Positions 44,435-54,651 of a DNA stretch of 56,769 nucleotides are shown one piece after another. The stretch is from contig JAGWNX010000010.1 of the NCBI GenBank assembly GCA_028872955.1, positions 1 to 56,769 of the forward strand, in the 5' to 3' direction. This DNA is from Acidobacteriota bacterium (GTDB lineage: Bacteria > Acidobacteriota > Terriglobia > Terriglobales > Acidobacteriaceae). The number at the start of each line of letters is the position of its first letter. The first letter of the stretch is position 1. Below the pieces are notes generated by a model. The model saw only the letters and a list, made by a program, of their open reading frames with translations. It was not told the origin of the DNA and searched no databases. The translations under genes and the position numbers were made by a program.

Positions 44435-45607
44435 ATGAGCCTGACGAGTGTCTCGTATCTGTGGCGGGAGCCACAGGCAGCCAAGGGCTTCAACTACGGC
44501 GTTTCGCTGCATAGTCATACCAACCAGTCCAAAGAGACGCTGGACTTTATCGCCGAGCTCTCCAAGGAGTGGGGGTTTCTGCAGCCGGTGATGCGCTGGA
44601 TGGAAGACCGCAGCCACACCCGCACCGGCATTCGGCCAGACTATGCACGCAGCTACTGGACTCCGCCGCTGACGCCGAAGCTGGCGTTTGAGCTGGAGCG
44701 ACGCCAGATTGAGCAGCAGCTGAACTTGCCGGGCATGGTCTCGATCACCGACCACGACGACATTCAGGCGCCGTTGCTGCTGCGCAACGTTCCCTCGGCA
44801 CGCCACATTCCGGTCTCAGTTGAGTGGACCGTGCCCTACGGCAACAGCGCCTTCCATATTGGCGTGCACAACCTGCCCAGCGCCAGTGCTGCGGAGTGGA
44901 TGGAGCGGCTCTCTGCCCTGACCGCGATTCCGGCCGATGAGCGACGCCCCGGCCAACTGACCGAGATGCTGGCCGAGCTGGATGCCATGCCCGGTGTGCT
45001 GGTGATCTTCAACCACCCGATGTGGGACCTGTACCGCGTGGGCCGGGACCGCCATGATGTGCTGGTCAACGACTTTCTGGCCCAACATGGCCAGTATGTG
45101 CATGCTTTGGAGCTGAACGGCCTGCGCAACTGGAAGGAGAACCGCGAGGTCTCCACGCTGGCCAGCAAGTGGAACCAGCTGACCATCAGCGGCGGCGACC
45201 GCCATGGCGTGGAACCGAATGCCAACGTCAACCTGACCCACGCCACAACCTTCAGCGAGTTTGTCCACGAGGTGCGGCGGGAGCGGCGCAGCCATGTGCT
45301 GTTTATGCCGCAGTACGCGCAGCCGTGGAAGCACCGCATCCTGCAATCGACGCTGGACGCCATCCGCAACAATCCGGAGTTTCCCGAGGGCATGAAGCGC
45401 TGGGACGAGCGGGTCTTCCACCCCGGTCGCAACGGTGAGATGGCGCAGCTCTCGACCCTTTGGCCGAACGGACATGCGCCACGAATCGTCTCTGGCGTGC
45501 TGGCCTTCGTCAAGCTGCTGGGCAAGGCACCGGTCTCCGGCGGGCTGCGCCTGGCCTGGGACGAGACCAGCGAGATGCGCGCGACCCTGGCGGAACAGGA
45601 CGCTTAG
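44435..45607 (+). CDS. PHP-domain phosphoesterase-like protein
   Basis: 390-aa protein with PHP-like metal-site motifs: SLHSHTNQS near 24-32, SITDHDDIQ near 103-111, NHPMWDLYR and GGDRHGVEPNA. PHP proteins usually hold two or three metal ions and hydrolyse phosphate esters, for example histidinol phosphate, or nucleic acids. The large helical insert after the first motif (35-95) is unusual. Substrate unknown. AAGGAGG lies close to the ATG at 44435. The GT4 gene follows after 33 bp on the same strand, so a joint role in making a glycan or glycolipid, for example removing a phosphate, is possible (inference). Confidence 0.82.
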   Translation: MSLTSVSYLWREPQAAKGFNYGVSLHSHTNQSKETLDFIAELSKEWGFLQPVMRWMEDRSHTRTGIRPDYARSYWTPPLTPKLAFELERRQIEQQLNLPGMVSITDHDDIQAPLLLRNVPSARHIPVSVEWTVPYGNSAFHIGVHNLPSASAAEWMERLSALTAIPADERRPGQLTEMLAELDAMPGVLVIFNHPMWDLYRVGRDRHDVLVNDFLAQHGQYVHALELNGLRNWKENREVSTLASKWNQLTISGGDRHGVEPNANVNLTHATTFSEFVHEVRRERRSHVLFMPQYAQPWKHRILQSTLDAIRNNPEFPEGMKRWDERVFHPGRNGEMAQLSTLWPNGHAPRIVSGVLAFVKLLGKAPVSGGLRLAWDETSEMRATLAEQDA

Positions 45608-45640
45608 GCAGTGCGCGGCCTGCGCCGCAGCGGAGAAGCC

Positions 45641-46849
45641 ATGCAGCATCCTCGCGTTGCCTACTTTCCGGACTCGTTCCACGAGGTAAACGGCGTGGCG
45701 CACACCAGCCGGCAGCTGGTGAGCTTTGCCGGGCGGCACCAGCGGCCGATGCTTTGTGTGCGCGCCGCGGCAGCCCAGGGCGAGAGCGAGAGCGGCAGCG
45801 CCAGTGCCTGCGGCTCCGTGCAGGTGCTGGAGCTACCCCGCGGCCGCTCCGCAATCCGGGTGGAGAAGGACCTCTCCTTTGACCCGCTCTTTGGCCGGCA
45901 CCTGAACGCGGTGCGGCGAGCGCTGGAGCACTTTCAGCCGCAGGTCATCCACATAACCGGCCCCAGCGAGCTGGGCTTTGCCGGCGCCTACTTTGCCTGG
46001 GAGATGGGCGTGCCGCTGGCAGCCTCCTGGCACACGAACGTGCATGAGTATGCGGCGCGGCGGCTGGAGAGCTGGTCCCGCCGGTTGCCGGGCGGGCTGG
46101 CGCGCGGGCTGGAGGGCGGCGTGCAACTGGCCGCCTGGCACAGCGCAGGAGCCTTCTACCGGCTGGCACGGGTTCTGTACGCGCCGAACGCCGAGCTGTG
46201 CGCACAGCTGCAGGCCGCTACGGGGCGCACCTGCCACCTGATGCAGCGCGGCGTGGACACCACGCTGTTCTCCCCGGCGCGGCGGCGGCGCGCGGCGGAC
46301 GATACAACCCTGCGGCTGGGCTACGTGGGTCGCCTGTCGGTGGAAAAGAACGTGGCCCTGCTGATCGAGGTGGAGCGCGAGCTGTTCGCGCGCGGCATTC
46401 GCGACGTGGAGTTTGTGATCGTTGGGCATGGCGACGAGCAGGCTCGGCTGCGCGCCGGGCTGCGGCAGGCACAGTTTACCGGCGTGCTGCGCGGCGAAGC
46501 ACTTGCCGACGCCTATGCGGCCATGGACCTGCTGGTGTTCCCCTCACACACGGATACCTTTGGCAACGTCGTGCTGGAGGCGCTGGCCAGCGGCGTGCCT
46601 GCCGTGGTGACGCCGGATGGCGGGCCAAAGTTCATTGTTCGCCATGGCGAGACGGGACTGGTGGCACGCGACGCTGACTTTGGCGCGGCCGTAGCCCTGC
46701 TGGCCGAAACCGTGACGCTGCGCCAGCGGATGGGCCAGGCGGCCCGCAGCTACGCCGAGGGCTGCAGCTGGGACGCCGTCTTTGAGCGCGTGTACGAAGG
46801 CTATGCCCGCGCCGCCGAGGGACGCGGCGAGGCGGTGTGGCAGATTTGA
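45641..46849 (+). CDS. GT4-family glycosyltransferase (MgtA/PimB-like)
   Basis: 402-aa GT-B glycosyltransferase. The N-terminal half begins VAYFPDSFHEVNGVAHTSRQL (a typical acceptor-side start of GT4 mannosyl- or glucuronosyltransferases); the C-terminal half has LGYVGRLSVEKNV and the nucleotide-sugar motif PSHTDTFGNVVLEALASGVPAV, an EX7E-like pattern. Similar enzymes transfer mannose or glucose to lipids or phosphatidylinositol-like acceptors in the inner membrane leaflet. GGAGAAG lies six bases before the ATG at 45641; a GTG at 45611 is possible. It lies directly behind the PHP gene. Confidence 0.92.
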   Translation: MQHPRVAYFPDSFHEVNGVAHTSRQLVSFAGRHQRPMLCVRAAAAQGESESGSASACGSVQVLELPRGRSAIRVEKDLSFDPLFGRHLNAVRRALEHFQPQVIHITGPSELGFAGAYFAWEMGVPLAASWHTNVHEYAARRLESWSRRLPGGLARGLEGGVQLAAWHSAGAFYRLARVLYAPNAELCAQLQAATGRTCHLMQRGVDTTLFSPARRRRAADDTTLRLGYVGRLSVEKNVALLIEVERELFARGIRDVEFVIVGHGDEQARLRAGLRQAQFTGVLRGEALADAYAAMDLLVFPSHTDTFGNVVLEALASGVPAVVTPDGGPKFIVRHGETGLVARDADFGAAVALLAETVTLRQRMGQAARSYAEGCSWDAVFERVYEGYARAAEGRGEAVWQI

Positions 46850-46859
46850 CCCGACCGGG

Positions 46860-48188
46860 CTAGTAGCGCAGCTCCCCGAGATAGACCATGTACGGCGCGA
46901 GCTGTACGTGATCGAGATCCATGGGGCCCATGACACCGTCGGACCGGGCCAGGGTGCGGAGGAAGTTACCACGCAGCCCCAGGTGCTGGGTGTCGGCGTG
47001 CAGAGCGACCTCCACGGGCTGGCTGGAGAGGTTGCAGACCACGACCAGAGCCGGGCTGGCCGGGGTAATGGACGCCGGGCGACGCACGAAGGCTAGCACC
47101 TGCTGGTTGTCATGCGGCAGGAAGGTGGTGGTCCCGGTGCGCAGGGTCAGATTGGTGTGCCTCAGTGCGTTGAGCTGGCGGTACCAGCTCAGCACGGAGT
47201 CCGGGTCTGCCTGCTGGGTGCTGACGTAGCGCGGGTCGGGCGCGGGCGGATTGCGAAGCCGCGCGGCAGAGGCTGGAGGCGGCGGAGGCTCCCAGGGGAA
47301 CTCCGTGCCCGGAGCCGTGAGGCCTATCTCCTGCCCGAACAACAGCATGGACGAGCCACGGGTGGTGAGCAGGATGGTTGCGGCGAGCTTCTCTGCCTGA
47401 GGGGAAGGCGGCGCAGCCCACCGGACTGCGCTGCGTGGCTGCCCCGGCGCGTCGGTGAGCAACAGCGGTACCGGAGTGCGGGGCGCGGGTGGCGCATCAA
47501 ACTGGCTGAGGGTGGTGCGGAGGGTGGCCGCATCCAGATGCGGGGCGTTGGCCAACGTGGACACCAGCAGGAGGTTGGGCGAGTCAGCCGGGGTGAGCGC
47601 CGCGCCTGCGGCTGGCTGATCGGCGATGAGGATGCGCTCGCCGACAAAGCTGTTGAGCAGCACGCGCAGATCGTGCAGATGATCCTGCGGGCCTATGAGA
47701 TGGAAGCCAGCGACGCCGCGGCTGAGCCAGAAGCGGGCAAGTGGCTGCAGGTCTGGCGTGCTGGCGGGGTCCAGGTCTAGCAGAACGCGCATCTCGCGAC
47801 GGCTAGCTTGCAGGAGCAGGTCGTCAAAGTCGTCCAGCGAGCCGAGCGCGGGATCGACCAGGTGGGCCGGATCGGGATGCTCGGGCTGCAGGTTATGCAG
47901 CAGCACGGCATCCACGCCGAGCGAACGCAGGTAGTCCAGCCGCTGGGTGAGGTTGGCCAGTGCAGACGGCACCGGCGGCACGTTGCTCTGGAACTGGTGA
48001 GGATCCACCTGGTACAGCACCGCGTGGCGCCACCAGGTGTTGGGCTGCATACCGCTGCCGGCCCAGCCCGGACGCGCCAGCGTCTGGCCGCCACAGGTTG
48101 CCGTGAGGGTGGCCACCGCCAGCAGCCGCCGCGCCCATGCGCGTAGTCCGCTGCCGCACCTACGAGGGAGAAAGCCGGGGAGTGCCAT
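46860..48188 (-). CDS. GH13-like protein that has lost the catalytic residues
   Basis: 442-aa exported protein (signal peptide about 1-32). The alpha-amylase / alpha-glucosidase fold is recognisable: NTWWRHAVLYQVDPHQF (normally WWK-AVIYQIYPRSF), RLDYLRSLGVDAVLL, LDDFDDLLLQAS, KLAATILLTTRGSSMLLFGQEIGL and a C-terminal beta domain. The three catalytic acids are absent: the GFRxD nucleophile region reads GFHLIG, the GE acid/base region reads LIADQP, and the NHD region reads TDAPGQPRSAVRW. It is therefore predicted to be inactive as a hydrolase and may bind sugars or another protein. Start 48188 is chosen for the signal peptide. Confidence 0.82.
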   Translation of the reverse strand: MALPGFLPRRCGSGLRAWARRLLAVATLTATCGGQTLARPGWAGSGMQPNTWWRHAVLYQVDPHQFQSNVPPVPSALANLTQRLDYLRSLGVDAVLLHNLQPEHPDPAHLVDPALGSLDDFDDLLLQASRREMRVLLDLDPASTPDLQPLARFWLSRGVAGFHLIGPQDHLHDLRVLLNSFVGERILIADQPAAGAALTPADSPNLLLVSTLANAPHLDAATLRTTLSQFDAPPAPRTPVPLLLTDAPGQPRSAVRWAAPPSPQAEKLAATILLTTRGSSMLLFGQEIGLTAPGTEFPWEPPPPPASAARLRNPPAPDPRYVSTQQADPDSVLSWYRQLNALRHTNLTLRTGTTTFLPHDNQQVLAFVRRPASITPASPALVVVCNLSSQPVEVALHADTQHLGLRGNFLRTLARSDGVMGPMDLDHVQLAPYMVYLGELRY

Positions 48189-48368: not shown

Positions 48369-51300
48369 TTGAGCGAGTGGAATGTGGGACAGTGGGTGCG
48401 GCGAATTGGGAACGTTCTCTTAATGACGGCGGGGCTCGCCTGCCTGACCTGTGGCGTGGCCCGTGCGCAGAACGATAAGCAGGTTGCGGCCATCGTAGGC
48501 GCGCTGCCGGCCACAACGCAGCAGGTGCTGACTCGCCTGGGCGAGTTCAACAACCTGCCAGCCGAGCAGTGGCGCTACCACGCAGGCGACCTGGCCCACG
48601 GTGAAGCGACCGACCTGGACGATAGCAGCTGGCCCGAGGTGGGTCCGCGCAGCCAGGCCGCCAACGAGGCCGCGTGGTACCGTCGCACCATTGAAGTGCC
48701 TAAGACGCTGCACGGTTACGACCTGAGCGGCGCGCGCATCTGGTTCCAGTTCCGCGCTTCGGCCAATGGTCCTATGCCGCAGATCATCTACTTCAACGGC
48801 CGCCGCGTGGCACTGGGCGATGACCTGGAGCCGATCGTGCTGTTTGACCACGCCGCCCCGGGCGACAAAGTGGTAGTGGCGGTAAAGCTGCTGCACACCG
48901 TGGATGTGAAGACCTTTGAGGGCGCGACCCTGAAGATTGACTTTGCCGACGGCCGACCAAACCCGGAGGACCTGCGGCTGGAGCTGATCTCTGCCGCGGC
49001 ACTGATTCCCTCTCTCTCCAAAGACCAGACCGACGACACGGCAACGCTGGTGCGCGCCGCCAACGCAGTGGACCTGAAGGCGCTGGACGCGGGCGACCAG
49101 AAGCAGTTTGATGCCTCGCTGGTGCAGGCCAAGACTGCGCTGGACGAGATCAAGCCCATGCTGCAGCAGGCAACGCTGCACCTGACCGGCAACTCGCACA
49201 TTGACGCAGCGTGGCTGTGGCCATGGACTGAGACGGTGGACGTGGTGAAGCGCACCTTCGGCACGGCGCTGCAGTTGATGAACGAGTATCCGGACTACAC
49301 CTACACGCAGTCGGCTGCGCAGTACAACGAGTGGATCGCCACCAAGTACCCGGCGATGAACGAGGAGATCAAGAAGCGCATCAAGGAAGGCCGCTGGGAG
49401 GTGGTGGGCGGCATGTGGATTGAGCCTGACCTGAACATGCCGGACGGCGAGTCGCAGGTACGCTCGCTGCTGCTGGGCAAGCGCTTCTTCCAGAAGGAAT
49501 ATGGCGTGGATGTGCGCATCGGCTGGAATCCGGACTCGTTTGGTTACAATTGGCAGCTGCCGCAGATCTACAAGCGCAGCGGCGTCGACTACTTTGTGAC
49601 GCAGAAGATGACGTGGAACGACACCAATCAACTGCCGTTCAAGCTCTTCTGGTGGGAGTCGCCGGATGGCAGCAAGGTGCTCACCTACTTTCCGCATGAC
49701 TACGCGAACAACAACCTGAACCCCGTGCGCCTGACGACCGACCTGGCCACTGCACGCCAGCGTGCCCCGGGCATGGACGAGATGATGGACCTGTACGGCA
49801 TTGGCGACCACGGCGGCGGGCCGACGCGCGCCATTCTGGACGAGGGCAACCACTGGGCGGAGCCGGACAAGACCGTGCCGAAGATTGAGTTCGGCACAGC
49901 GCAGTCGTTCTTCAGCAAGGTGGAGAAGGAGATTGCGCCTGACTCGCCGGAGTGGAACTACGGTTCGATCGCGCAGGGTTACAAATATCCGGACGCGGTC
50001 AACGGCAAGATCTCGATTCCGACCTGGAAGGACGAGATGTACTTCGAGTACCACCGCGGCGTGATGACCACGCAGGCCGGCCACAAGCGCAACATGCGCG
50101 AGAGCGAAGAGTGGACGCTGAACGCAGAGAAGTACGCCAGCCTGGCCTGGCTGGATGGCGTCAGCTATCCGAACGCGGCTCTGACCGAGGCGTGGAAGAA
50201 GATCACGTTCAATAACTTCCACGATCTCGCCGCAGGCTCCGGCATTGGCATCATCTACCAGGAGGCGCAGAAGGACTATGACGCGGTGCGTTGGTCGACC
50301 AACGAGATTACGCGCGATTCGCTGGAGACCCTGGCGGCTCGTGTGAACACCCGTGCCGCCGGCGAGGTGCCGGTTATGGTGTGGAATCCGCTGGGCTGGA
50401 CCCGCAGCGGTGTGGCGACCGTGAAGGTCCAGCTGCCCGCCGCCTCGGCAGGTGGCATCTCTGTACTGGATGCCGCAGGCAAGGTGCTGCCCAGCTCCGT
50501 GCTGAGCCACGACGCTGCCACCAACAGCTACACGCTGATGGTGCAGGCCAACGACGTGCCGAGCCTTGGCTACAAGGTGCTGCACGCTGTGGCCGGTGCG
50601 CGGCCGTTTGCCACAGACCTGAAGGCCACGGACGCGGGCAAGAGCGTGACGCTGGAAAACGCGAAGTTGCGCGTAGTGATCGACACCACGACCGGCTGCA
50701 TGACCAGCCTGTATGACAAGACGTCGAAGTTTGAAAGTCTGGCGGCGGGCGCCTGCGGCAACCAGTTGCAGACCTTCAAAGACACGCCCGAGAAGTATGA
50801 CGCGTGGAACATTGATCCTGGCACGCTGGACCACATGACGCCGATCGAGGCCGTAGACTCCGTAAAGCTGGTGGAGAAGGGGCCCATGCGTGCCGTGGTC
50901 CGCGTCACGCGTACCTGGCAGAGCTCGAAGTTTGTGCAGGACGTTGAGCTGGTAGCCGGGGCAAACACGGTGAATGTGGTCAATGACATTGACTGGCACG
51001 AGACGCACGTTTTGCTGAAGGCGGCGTTTCCGCTGGCGGCCACCGGCCCCATGGCGACGTACGAGATTCCTTACGGCACGATTGACCGCACCACACTGCG
51101 AACCAACAGCTGGGAGCAGGCGAAGTTTGAAGTGCCGGCGATGCGCTGGGCTGACCTGGGCGACGGACAACACGGCGTAAGCCTGCTGAACGAAGCCAAG
51201 TATGGCTACGATGCCGCAGGCAATGTGCTGCGGCTGACGCTGCTGCGCTCGCCCACCTGGCCTGACCCCGAGGCTGATCTAGGGCATCAGCACTTCAGCT

Positions 51301-51695
51301 ACGCGCTGTACCCGCACACGGGCACGTGGAAGCAGGCGCTGACGGAGCGGACTGGCTGGGAGTACAACTACCAGCTTGCGGCAGAGCAGGTGGCTGCGCA
51401 CGCGGGCAGCATGGGTCTGGAACACTCCTACCTGTCTGTTGCTCCGGAGAACGTTCTGCTGACTGCGGTGAAGAAGGCCGAGGATGAGAATGGCCTGATT
51501 CTGCGAGCCTATGAGTGGGCAGGTAAGGAGAGCGAGGTCAGCTTCCACGTGCCCACGGGCGCGACCGGAGCGACCGAGACGAACCTGATGGAAAAGCCGG
51601 TGGGTGCTGCGTTGCCCGTCTCCGGAGACACCGTGAAAGCCACCATTCACCCTTACGAGATTCTGACCGTGCGGGTGGACTATGCGAAGCAGTAA
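48369..51695 (+). CDS. GH38 alpha-mannosidase
   Basis: 1108-aa exported glycosidase. The GH38 metal site starts with TGNSHIDAAWLWPW (HxDxxW) near residues 275-288; the catalytic nucleophile is expected in GWNPDSFGYNWQLPQIY near 385-400; further conserved segments are VTQKMTWNDTNQ and NNFHDLAAGSGIG. A long N-terminal jelly-roll-like region (about 40-270) and C-terminal beta domains follow family pattern. TTG at 48369 with GGAGAG six bases upstream gives a full signal peptide; ATG at 48423 is an alternative with a shorter one. It removes alpha-linked mannose. Regulation is not visible; no operator like the LacI site was found upstream. Confidence 0.92.
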   Translation: MSEWNVGQWVRRIGNVLLMTAGLACLTCGVARAQNDKQVAAIVGALPATTQQVLTRLGEFNNLPAEQWRYHAGDLAHGEATDLDDSSWPEVGPRSQAANEAAWYRRTIEVPKTLHGYDLSGARIWFQFRASANGPMPQIIYFNGRRVALGDDLEPIVLFDHAAPGDKVVVAVKLLHTVDVKTFEGATLKIDFADGRPNPEDLRLELISAAALIPSLSKDQTDDTATLVRAANAVDLKALDAGDQKQFDASLVQAKTALDEIKPMLQQATLHLTGNSHIDAAWLWPWTETVDVVKRTFGTALQLMNEYPDYTYTQSAAQYNEWIATKYPAMNEEIKKRIKEGRWEVVGGMWIEPDLNMPDGESQVRSLLLGKRFFQKEYGVDVRIGWNPDSFGYNWQLPQIYKRSGVDYFVTQKMTWNDTNQLPFKLFWWESPDGSKVLTYFPHDYANNNLNPVRLTTDLATARQRAPGMDEMMDLYGIGDHGGGPTRAILDEGNHWAEPDKTVPKIEFGTAQSFFSKVEKEIAPDSPEWNYGSIAQGYKYPDAVNGKISIPTWKDEMYFEYHRGVMTTQAGHKRNMRESEEWTLNAEKYASLAWLDGVSYPNAALTEAWKKITFNNFHDLAAGSGIGIIYQEAQKDYDAVRWSTNEITRDSLETLAARVNTRAAGEVPVMVWNPLGWTRSGVATVKVQLPAASAGGISVLDAAGKVLPSSVLSHDAATNSYTLMVQANDVPSLGYKVLHAVAGARPFATDLKATDAGKSVTLENAKLRVVIDTTTGCMTSLYDKTSKFESLAAGACGNQLQTFKDTPEKYDAWNIDPGTLDHMTPIEAVDSVKLVEKGPMRAVVRVTRTWQSSKFVQDVELVAGANTVNVVNDIDWHETHVLLKAAFPLAATGPMATYEIPYGTIDRTTLRTNSWEQAKFEVPAMRWADLGDGQHGVSLLNEAKYGYDAAGNVLRLTLLRSPTWPDPEADLGHQHFSYALYPHTGTWKQALTERTGWEYNYQLAAEQVAAHAGSMGLEHSYLSVAPENVLLTAVKKAEDENGLILRAYEWAGKESEVSFHVPTGATGATETNLMEKPVGAALPVSGDTVKATIHPYEILTVRVDYAKQ

Positions 51696-51755: not shown

Positions 51756-53501
51756 TTAAGGCTTGCTTGGGGCTGGTTCCTCCACCTTCAACTGCTGGTC
51801 TGCAGCCACGTTGGCGAGCCGCTGCACGATGCCCGAGGGCCAGCGGATGACCACGCTGGAGGCAACCGTAGCACCGCCCAGGCCGAAGTGTGCCCGTTTA
51901 TCGCTGGAGGAGAGATAGCTGCCCGCCGTGCTGACGGTCTCCACCTGCGTGCCAGCGGGCGTGGTCACGCTGATCTCTGCGCCGATGCCATCGCGGTTGG
52001 AGGTGTGGCCCACCAGCAACAGCGAAAGCCAGTGATTGGTGGTCTGGGTAAGGTTATGCAGAATGTGCGCCGGGCCGCCGTTGGTGGAGACGACGGCGTC
52101 CAGGCGGCCATCATTGTCCAGGTCGCCGATGGCGAGGCCGCGCGAGACCCACGCCTGCTGGAAGGCCGGGCCAGCCTCTTTGCTGACGTCGGCAAAGTCG
52201 CCTTTGCCCGCGTTGTGCAGCAGCAGCATCGGCTCTTCGTAGTGGATCTGCGGAAAGCTCAGTGCCACGTTGTCGATGTCGTGGCCCTGGGCTACCAGCA
52301 GGTCCTTGCGGCCGTCGTTGTCGTAGTCAAAGAAGTGAATACCCCACCCAGAGTGCAGCAGCGTGATGCGTGCCAGGCCTGAGGTGTAGGTGGCGTAGGT
52401 GAAGGTACCGTCGCCGTTGTTGTGGTACAGCGCATACTTTTCGTTGGCCAGGTTGGTGATGACCAGGTCGGGCAGACCGTCATTGTCAAAGTCCTGGAAG
52501 TCGATGCCCATACCCGCGTAGGTGCGGCCGTTTCCGTCCACGGCGATCTCTGCGTTGAAACCACTCTCCTCAAACGTTCCATCGCCCTTGTTGTGGTAGA
52601 GGAACTCGAACATGGAGTCGTTGGCGATGGCGAGATCGAGCCTGCCATCGCGATCAAAGTCAGTAAACGCAATGCCGAGGCCCTTGCCGGGCTTGTCCAG
52701 GCCAATCTTGCTGGCAACCTCAGTGAAATGGCCGTTGCCATCGTTGTGGTACACGAGCGGTGCGATCGCGGGAAACAGATCCGGGTGGCAGTAGTTGCGA
52801 TAGCCTTCGCGGTGCTCACCGCACCAGATGTCGTCAAAGTCCCAGACGACGTAACGCAGGACGATCAGGTCCAGCTTGCCATCGTTGTCCAGGTCCACCC
52901 AGGCGGCCGACGTGGACCAGTACTGGCCGGGCGTCTTGGGGCCGCCCGTGCCCGAGGCGGCAGTGACATCCGTAAAGGTGCCGTCGCCGTTGTTGTGGTA
53001 CAGGTGATTGCCGCCGAAGGCCGTGACGTACAGGTCCTCGTTGCCGTCGTTGTCGTAGTCGGCCACGGCGACGCCCATGCCATAGCCAACGCCCTGCAGG
53101 CCGGCCTTGGCGGTCACATCCTCAAAGGTGCCGTCCTTCTTCTGGTGGTACAGGCGGTTCCAGTCTGCCGGCGAGGCCTTCTGCGGAATCGTGCCGTGGG
53201 GGGTGGGATCGGCCAGGGGCGCGCCGTTGACGAAGTAGAGGTCAAGCAGCCCGTCGTTGTCGTAGTCAAACGACGCCACGCCAGAGCCCATGGTCTCCAT
53301 CAGGTACTTGTGCGAGGTGTGGCTGGCGACGCCCGTGAAGTGCACACCCATCTGCGCAGCGGTATCAACAAAGTTGGCCTGCGCGGCCTGGGCCACAGTC
53401 GCGGGTGGTGAAGATGGCCCGGGCGGCGGCGTGGGAGCAGCCTGCTGCGCGGCGGCCGAAGCCGCCAGCAGCAGCGAAGATGCGAGTGTGAGCGACACCA
53501 T
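51756..53501 (-). CDS. CRTAC1-type protein: FG-GAP/VCBS propeller with ASPIC/UnbV domain
   Basis: 581-aa exported protein (signal peptide about 1-18). Seven calcium-binding DxDxDG motifs are visible, for example DYDNDGLLD, DYDNDGNED, DLDNDGKLD, DFDRDGRLD, DFDNDGLPD, DYDNDGRKD, DLDNDGRLD, marking an integrin-like beta-propeller. The C-terminal ASPIC/UnbV domain is seen as GAEISVTTPAGTQVETV through HFGLGGATVASSVVIRWPSG. Such proteins are abundant in Acidobacteria; a role in polysaccharide or surface binding is only inferred. It is convergent with GH38 and co-directional with the GH5-like gene, which it follows by 25 bp, suggesting co-transcription. Confidence 0.93.
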   Translation of the reverse strand: MVSLTLASSLLLAASAAAQQAAPTPPPGPSSPPATVAQAAQANFVDTAAQMGVHFTGVASHTSHKYLMETMGSGVASFDYDNDGLLDLYFVNGAPLADPTPHGTIPQKASPADWNRLYHQKKDGTFEDVTAKAGLQGVGYGMGVAVADYDNDGNEDLYVTAFGGNHLYHNNGDGTFTDVTAASGTGGPKTPGQYWSTSAAWVDLDNDGKLDLIVLRYVVWDFDDIWCGEHREGYRNYCHPDLFPAIAPLVYHNDGNGHFTEVASKIGLDKPGKGLGIAFTDFDRDGRLDLAIANDSMFEFLYHNKGDGTFEESGFNAEIAVDGNGRTYAGMGIDFQDFDNDGLPDLVITNLANEKYALYHNNGDGTFTYATYTSGLARITLLHSGWGIHFFDYDNDGRKDLLVAQGHDIDNVALSFPQIHYEEPMLLLHNAGKGDFADVSKEAGPAFQQAWVSRGLAIGDLDNDGRLDAVVSTNGGPAHILHNLTQTTNHWLSLLLVGHTSNRDGIGAEISVTTPAGTQVETVSTAGSYLSSSDKRAHFGLGGATVASSVVIRWPSGIVQRLANVAADQQLKVEEPAPSKP

Positions 53502-53526: not shown

Positions 53527-54651
53527 TTACTGCGTCGATGTGGTTCCGCGACCGGTCAGTTGGCGGATCAGGTCGACCTCGTGCTGCCGGTACGGCGTGT
53601 CGTCCTGCCGGAAGACCTCGTGAAACCACACCGTGGGCTGCGAGAGCACATACGGCTTCTGCCAGGAGTCCCAGGGGAAGTACGTCTGCGTCTTGCCGGC
53701 GACGAAGCCCCAGTTGATGGCACCGACGTTGTACTTCTTCGCAATGGGGAGCGAGTTGTCAAAGGTGCTGCCCGCGCCGCGGGCCATATACTCCGAGCAG
53801 AGGATGGGCCGGTGGTAGCGCTGCAGCTCCACGATGCGCGCCTCGAACTCCTCTGGCCAGCCGTAGTTGTGGAAGGTGAGGATGTCGGACTCGGCGAGCT
53901 GAATGCGAACCACGGCATTCTCCTTGGCGGGGTCGCTCCAGCTCCCGTTCCACAGGCCGCTAGTCAGCGGCTGGGTGGCACCGGCCTCGCGCGCCCAGGC
54001 AAAGACCTGCGGCAGCAACTGCGCCACGCGATCTGCCTTATGCGGGGGGTCGTTGTAGGAGCCCGCATTGCCGTTGTCCGGCTCGTTCCAGACATCCCAA
54101 CCCAGGATACGGTCGTCCTTGGCAAAGGCACCGACGACGCCTTTGACGTAGGCCTGAAGCTTCGGCTCATAGGCCGGGTCCATAAGCTCCCTGGCACCGG
54201 GGCTCTGCACCCAGCCGGAGTTGTGCACGCCGGGGATAGGCGGGTGCTGCGGACCAAGGTGCGGGTTGGGATCCCAGCAGGAGTCAAAGAGCACCAGCAG
54301 CGGGCGGATGTGGTGCTTTGCCGCGATGGCCAGGAAGGCGTCGAGCCGATGGGTGAAGCCTGCAGGGTCTGAGGTGTAGAGCTGGTCCTGCAGGAAGACC
54401 CGCATCGTGTTCATGCCGATGCTCTCGGCCATCCCCAGTTCCTTGTCGTTGAGCGCCGGGTTGAAGGTCTCCGCCTGAAACATCTCAAACTGATTGATGG
54501 CGTCCGAGGGGATGAAGTTGGAGCCGACCAGCCAAGGCTGCCTGGCGTACCACTGGTTCGCCCGGGCCTCAGTCCAGCGCGCGGGAGCGGCGGCACAGGC
54601 CACCGAGGGCAGAAGCGTAGCGGCAAGCAGGGCGAGCAGAAGAGATCGCAT
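53527..54651 (-). CDS. Clan A glycoside hydrolase, GH5-like
   Basis: 374-aa exported glycosidase (signal peptide about 1-20, ending ACAAAP). Catalytic glutamates are evident: the acid/base in GWDVWNEPD near residue 190 and the nucleophile in PILCSEYMARG near 275. The rest fits an eight-fold barrel. Subfamily and substrate cannot be fixed: endo-mannanase, cellulase and xylanase activities all occur. The neighbours (alpha-mannosidase, alpha-galactosidase, LacI) make a beta-mannanase role attractive (inference). AGGAAC lies before the ATG at 54651. It is divergent from lacI, so the operator between them may control it too. Confidence 0.85.
   Translation of the reverse strand: MRSLLLALLAATLLPSVACAAAPARWTEARANQWYARQPWLVGSNFIPSDAINQFEMFQAETFNPALNDKELGMAESIGMNTMRVFLQDQLYTSDPAGFTHRLDAFLAIAAKHHIRPLLVLFDSCWDPNPHLGPQHPPIPGVHNSGWVQSPGARELMDPAYEPKLQAYVKGVVGAFAKDDRILGWDVWNEPDNGNAGSYNDPPHKADRVAQLLPQVFAWAREAGATQPLTSGLWNGSWSDPAKENAVVRIQLAESDILTFHNYGWPEEFEARIVELQRYHRPILCSEYMARGAGSTFDNSLPIAKKYNVGAINWGFVAGKTQTYFPWDSWQKPYVLSQPTVWFHEVFRQDDTPYRQHEVDLIRQLTGRGTTSTQ

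Follow-up and report, generated by a model that had tools for sequence, protein, structure and literature searches.

Animals and plants provide documented cases of catalytically dead GH13 proteins, and in them the path from enzyme to subunit is hard to retrace. According to the excerpted text of PMC8537225, the ectodomain of 4F2hc (CD98hc, encoded by SLC3A2) consists of a GH13-derived barrel and a C-domain, its active site is not conserved and it has no domain B, and the ectodomain of rBAT (SLC3A1) is a non-enzymatic GH13 relative that keeps domain B and the triad. Both proteins also figure as non-enzymatic GH13 relatives in the excerpts of PMC11239784. The plant isoamylase ISA2, as described in the excerpt of PMC12510319, belongs to GH13, has altered catalytic residues and acts in complexes. 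In bacteria, GH13 proteins with an altered triad are represented by the BmaN1 group and by some members of GH13_48 (excerpts of PMC5347038 and PMC11239784).

The stretch of DNA analysed here, called the window, comprises 56,769 nucleotides of contig JAGWNX010000010.1 from an Acidobacteriota bacterium of the Acidobacteriaceae. One of its genes (Table 1) had been predicted, from the letters alone, to encode an exported GH13-like protein without catalytic acids. This was borne out, as the product has a signal-peptide-like start, a barrel and a C-domain, and no triad. Computation traces this dead protein to a signal-peptide-bearing GH13 lineage of the alpha-glucosidase kind. The window gave no Rfam match at the gathering cut-off.

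Table 1. Gene of the dead protein, parts of its product and convergent neighbour, with positions in the window
Feature	Position	Strand	Basis or remark
Gene of the catalytically dead GH13-derived protein	46860..48188	(-)	442 aa + stop; stop codon 46860-46862
Signal peptide (residues 1-34), cleavage likely ahead of Gln35	48087..48188	(-)	crude test
Conserved mature N-terminal tail QTLARPGWAGSGM, residues 35-47	48048..48086	(-)	9/12 tail sites at >=80% identity, 50 rows
(beta/alpha)8 barrel, residues 49-351	47136..48044	(-)	eight strands in model; Foldseek and VIA GH13 matches
beta3-alpha3 loop, site of the missing domain B	47751..47771	(-)	loop-length comparison, dead versus active
Ile165 at nucleophile position	47694..47696	(-)	alignment with active forms
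Asp190 at acid/base position, Glu in active forms	47619..47621	(-)	alignment
Gly249 at transition-state stabiliser position	47442..47444	(-)	motif read by eye
beta8-alpha8 loop, proline-rich	47205..47321	(-)	Pro content, dead versus active rows
C-terminal beta domain, residues 352-442	46863..47135	(-)	27/91 sites at >=80% identity; Pfam C-domain matches
GT4 glycosyltransferase, convergent neighbour, context only	45611..46849	(+)	Pfam

Catalytic motifs and predicted fold

The original prediction had placed the changed catalytic-acid regions at GFHLIG, LIADQP and TDAPGQPR, and all three align there with the corresponding regions of active orthologues. At the nucleophile site the window's protein reads GFHLI, with Ile165, where active forms have GFRLD. 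The acid/base site reads LIAD, with Asp190, against LLVGE, with Glu, and the transition-state site reads TDAPG, with Gly249, against FDNHD, with Asp. Residues were placed inside each motif by eye; the column counts come from an alignment anchored on active forms, from which L072 and L075 were left out. The nucleophile Asp was found in 0 of 50 rows from the window's genus (g1), in 1 of 13 rows from g104, a second genus of the same family, and in 9 of 9 active rows of the same alignment. A transition-state Asp occurs in 6 of the 50 genus rows, where the alignment is loose, and in none of the 13 g104 rows. The acid/base position holds Asp in 45, Glu in 2 and another residue in 3 of the 50 genus rows; judged from these columns, the change is a conserved Glu-to-Asp replacement and not a random one. 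A full Asp/Glu/Asp triad is present in 0 of 63 dead rows (50 from the window's genus and 13 from g104). The claim that all three catalytic-acid regions are changed is confirmed for the window's protein and refined at the middle site; the absence of domain B had gone unmentioned. A retaining glycosidase needs its nucleophile to work. Since it is missing here, hydrolysis by the dead protein is very unlikely.

Acids at shifted positions can be ruled out for the window's protein: each of its motifs falls opposite the corresponding one in active orthologues, and the counterpart of Asp246 is the Asp preceding NHD in active paralogues (95% Asp there). Asp190 and Asp246 are each conserved at 90% in dead rows, and the GQE after beta8 remains conserved in dead proteins. 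In rows L030, L033, L035, L044, L047 and L048 the DGP and GQE motifs are lost as well. GH13 conserved sequence regions I-IV are not kept; region III retains an acid, the Asp that replaces Glu in 45 of 50 rows. The excerpts of PMC8537225 name the glucose-holding residues of subsite -1. Among the 50 genus rows, their counterparts were found once for the Asp of YDISDY (with a gap in 36 rows), never for the His of region I, once for the His of NHD (region IV) and 14 times for the Arg of GFR. In alignment A1 no column that is invariant or close to it holds a Cys, which bears on a covalent link to an SLC7 light chain as in 4F2hc.

The Pfam Alpha-amylase match, at E 1.3e-9, is confined to residues 63-139. 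Toward the C-terminus Pfam adds Malt_amylase_C at E 2.9e-6 and DUF3459 at E 2.1e-4. In phmmer searches of PDB sequences, alpha-glucosidases match short stretches of the dead protein, mostly residues 51-149, and human 4F2hc matches residues 44-350 as a single span. Structure prediction and superposition on GH13 enzymes, proposed earlier as a check, returned a GH13 barrel: the model of the mature protein has a mean pLDDT of 91.5 and eight barrel strands. The top Foldseek match is human 4F2hc (E 1.7e-24, TM 0.76/0.74), nearly tied with active GH13 enzymes (E 5.9e-24), and VIA places eight glucosidase entries (Z 36.3-38.8) above the 4F2hc rows (Z 33.4-35.8; 352-371 residues) among the matches listed. 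This near-tie and the higher glucosidase scores mean that the model resembles GH13 proteins in general, among which 4F2hc stands out by lacking domain B too. A g104 model is weaker (pLDDT 76.7); it also has eight strands, and confidence is low in its tail and in a proline-rich stretch.

The beta3-alpha3 segment, which in active forms carries domain B, has a median of 8 residues (range 5-15) in 50 dead rows and 84-103 residues in 26 active rows; for the beta4-alpha4 loop, the dead rows have a median of 8 residues (3-20) and the active ones 41-42. The beta8-alpha8 loop of dead rows is shorter than in active rows and rich in proline, which makes up 19.1% over the 50 dead rows, 28 of them at 15% or more. 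In active rows proline reaches 10.3% (five g72 rows) and 9.0% (21 paralogues), with 0 of 26 at 15% or more. The g104 rows average 20.3% proline over 12 rows (9 of 12 at 15% or more). In these g104 dead forms (L116-L128) the proline-rich beta8-alpha8 segment has a median of 103 residues and low model confidence, with 12 of 13 rows scored; loop-length scoring skipped L123.

A crude signal-peptide test, which asks for a hydrophobic stretch and small residues at -3/-1, was passed by 50 of the 58 family rows scored, among them the window's protein; 12 of 70 rows had no match to the tail pattern and were not scored. The hydrophobic stretch of these 50 is followed by a signal-peptidase-like site, which bears on an N-terminal transmembrane anchor as in SLC3. 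All 58 rows matching the tail pattern, active ones among them, have Gln where the mature chain probably begins. The 12 tail sites were counted from Leu37, and residues 1-11 of this count have pLDDT below 50 in the model of the mature protein. The idea that the tail is a general sorting signal found no support, as the coding pattern matches only the dead gene in its own genome.

Distribution, origin and selection

The dead gene has a match in 58 of 62 genomes of the window's genus, and 50 of these were extracted and aligned (left out were G007, G009, G024, G035, G037, with a partial match, G041, G060 and G061). In two near-complete genomes, G006 and G030, the GT4 gene is present and no ORF of the dead family lies in the 12-13 kb around it (stretches L157 and L158). 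Given this clean absence at the locus, the dead gene is dispensable in some species and its role is not essential everywhere. From g104, 13 dead-form proteins were read. In 399 genomes sampled from the class, those of the matches listed (E up to 1e-50) that cover the model from its first part on and lack domain B came only from g1 and g104. Active GH13 paralogues read from the window's genus keep the triad in 21 of 21 cases.

A third, related genus, g72, contains active orthologues in some of its genomes. Five of them (L109-L113) have GFRLD, VGE and NHD, with the triad intact in 5 of 5, and keep domain B in a beta3-alpha3 segment of 84-87 residues; they share with the dead forms a mature N-terminal tail of the same kind and the same C-terminal motif. 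Strong g72 matches (E up to 1e-80) came from at least 7 of the 19 g72 genomes listed, and five were placed in context: all five genes lie near a LOG gene and three near a GT4 gene, both of which also neighbour the dead gene in the window. The g104 dead genes have LOG nearby in 6 of 13 cases and GT4 in 4 of 13, some of these stretches being short. The nearest solved relatives of L109 are the alpha-glucosyltransferase 6aav and the alpha-glucosidases 2ze0, 7voh and 3wy1. Two further proteins, of other genera, likewise have an intact triad (2/2).

In a maximum-likelihood tree of 51 rows, 40 of them dead, all dead forms fall into one clade with support 100/100. The tree took 27 of the 50 genus rows, and the window's own row is among eight flagged for unusual composition. 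Genus members L038, L045, L047 and L048 sit on long branches. Two independent losses are disfavoured, since trees uniting g72 with just one dead genus were rejected (p-AU 3.8e-5), a result to which long branches may contribute. In the free tree the genus rows form no clade of their own, a difference that is not significant (p-AU 0.20). An ABC-F tree of 18 rows joined g1 and g104 apart from g72 (SH-aLRT 99); the LOG tree is unrooted and does not decide the order of g1, g104 and g72. As the dead forms make up a single clade, the most likely course is a single loss of catalysis in situ, before the two genera split. The original prediction had named, as grounds against itself, orthologues with intact acids beside a recent random loss. 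Such orthologues do exist, in g72. The loss, however, is common to 50 of 50 genus rows, and with the nucleophile kept in none of them a recent random event in the window's genome is ruled out.

Of the 50 genus genomes that have both genes, 36 carry GT4 no more than 3 kb from the dead gene; in the other 14 a long distance lies between them (8) or they sit on separate contigs (6), which leaves a functional link between the two weak. Being convergent in the window, they share no transcript by position. Beyond GT4, positions 44435-45607 (+) encode a 390-aa protein with no Pfam or NCBIfam match, whose HSHTN, TDHDD and FNHP motifs we take to recall PHP metal-dependent hydrolases; its family is present at 14 of 21 loci compared. 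On the other side, divergent from the dead gene, lies a GH38 alpha-mannosidase with all four Pfam GH38 parts (48369-51695, +), a family found at 2 of 20 other loci. It is followed by an FG-GAP/ASPIC-UnbV repeat protein (51756-53501, -) and a GH5/GH10-like protein with weak family scores (53527-54651, -).

The suggested dN/dS check in orthologues, made on the mature protein, gave 0.08-0.19 for nine close pairs within the genus. Full frames, which contain the signal peptide and some upstream codons, gave 0.09-0.21 in the fourteen closest genus pairs. More distant genus pairs reached 0.39, and the 14 closest g104 pairs gave 0.17-0.48 where defined; in several pairs dS is near or above 1 and the ratio is rough. 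Eight genome pairs offered other genes for comparison: in seven of them dN was greatest for the dead gene, and in the eighth a DUF4097 gene exceeded it.

Conservation, compared between site classes assigned from the secondary structure of the model, shows that constraint has shifted. The catalytic face is the lowest class in dead rows, with a mean of 0.48 versus 0.86 in active paralogues and with 13 of 136 sites at 80% identity or more versus 95 of 136. The C-domain has 0.66 in dead rows versus 0.72 in active paralogues (27/91 versus 36/91 sites). As diversity is lower among the active rows, what counts in this comparison is how the face fares against the C-domain. A smaller drop than that of the face, to 0.62-0.68 in dead rows, is seen for strands, helices and far-side loops. 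In dead rows the N-terminal tail ranks highest of all classes (0.85, with 9 of 12 sites at 80% or more); the active paralogues lack it and thus give no control. His308 (mature numbering) is newly conserved, at 98% in dead rows, where active paralogues have Arg. The computed rates and site patterns show, at the level of sequence, that the barrel and C-domain are retained under purifying selection. A new role rather than decay, as first proposed, is supported by presence in 58 of 62 genomes, the low dN/dS of close pairs, the confident fold and an apparently old, single loss.

Candidate functions of the dead protein

Having lost its nucleophile and transition-state Asp along with domain B and the greater part of the beta4-alpha4 loop, the dead protein would no longer act on sugar bonds. 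It may instead have become a non-catalytic exported subunit, periplasmic or on the surface, that serves as a scaffold or docking piece and holds a protein partner through its conserved mature N-terminal tail and C-domain, in a mode of action like that of 4F2hc in animals or ISA2 in plants. This reading is favoured because the parts that selection protects, namely the near-invariant tail, disordered in the model, the barrel core and the C-domain, resemble an assembly frame. Several findings temper it. The window and the genomes examined yielded no partner candidate. GT4 converges with the dead gene in the window and is remote from it, or on another contig, in 14 of the 50 genomes. The dead gene leads in dN in seven of eight genome pairs, its dN/dS rises in more distant pairs and in g104, and two near-complete genomes do without it at the locus. 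The tail is also present in the active g72 orthologues, so that its task may lie in export or stability instead of docking. Taken whole, descent from GH13, loss of catalysis and present service as an exported scaffold or docking subunit that holds a candidate partner by tail and C-domain, we regard the statement as an even proposition; that the protein is dead, that it is retained and that catalysis was lost once stands much firmer. We suggest more tentatively that the dead protein is a bacterial counterpart of 4F2hc of independent origin, an exported assembly or chaperone subunit docking by its mature N-terminal tail, with an active g72 orthologue surviving beside some of the same neighbours.

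Other readings of the same observations were weighed. The original prediction suggested sugar sensing or binding, and a sensor or lectin that takes up a glycan in its opened barrel cleft and leaves it uncut would fit a barrel that is intact in the model, a cleft that should be open without domain B, the conservation of Asp190 (45/50), Asp246 and the GQE after beta8, and sugar-active neighbours such as GT4, GH38 and the GH5-like protein. However, sugar binding is weakened by the loss of most glucose-holding counterparts in the genus rows and by the old catalytic face being the least conserved site class in dead rows. We therefore find little support for it and consider it unlikely, although the open cleft may bind another ligand. 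The conserved acids could also point to a new enzyme using Asp190 and Asp246 for other chemistry, both being kept at 90%. Asp246 is conserved in the active paralogues too, however, and most of the remaining face varies, which makes this the least credible of the readings.

A slowly decaying relic under weak constraint would account for the highest dN in seven of eight genome pairs, for dN/dS of up to 0.48 in g104, for the clean absence at the locus in two near-complete genomes and for the six rows without DGP and GQE motifs. Against it stand the dN/dS of 0.08-0.19 in nine close pairs, an ORF kept genus-wide, the signal-peptide-like start in 50 of 58 scored rows, the confident fold model and newly conserved sites such as His308; decay is thus improbable. 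By analogy with ISA2 and ISA1, the dead protein might be the partner subunit of an active exported GH13 paralogue, and such paralogues, with intact triads in 21 of 21, do occur in the same genus. Nothing in the analysis links the dead gene to their genes, though, and we rate this as very unlikely.

Comparison with known systems

Active orthologues, dead forms and dozens of variants occur here in related bacteria beside shared neighbours. With active and dead forms side by side in this way, the order of loss and new role becomes testable. Alpha-amylase and C-domain matches in such genomes do not mean an active enzyme. Among the matches listed in the open-licence literature, there was no paper on a bacterial family without domain B that has a live orthologue beside shared neighbours.

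The closest comparison lies within the family itself: the active g72 orthologue shares with the dead protein the kind of tail, the C-terminal motif and some neighbours, and differs by its triad and domain B. Among described bacterial proteins, BmaN1 keeps two of the three acids and is active, according to the excerpts of its sources, unlike the dead protein, and loss of domain B is not described for the BmaN1 group or the GH13_48 proteins in the excerpts of PMC5347038 and PMC11239784. ISA2 resembles the dead protein in its altered catalytic residues; it differs in belonging to a plant starch debranching lineage and in having an established partner, ISA1. Like the dead protein rBAT is non-enzymatic, but it retains domain B and the triad. 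4F2hc and the dead protein are alike in combining a dead GH13 barrel with a C-domain and no domain B. Whereas 4F2hc sits in animal membranes and is joined to a transporter of the SLC7 family, the dead protein begins, by the crude test, with a signal-peptide-like start.
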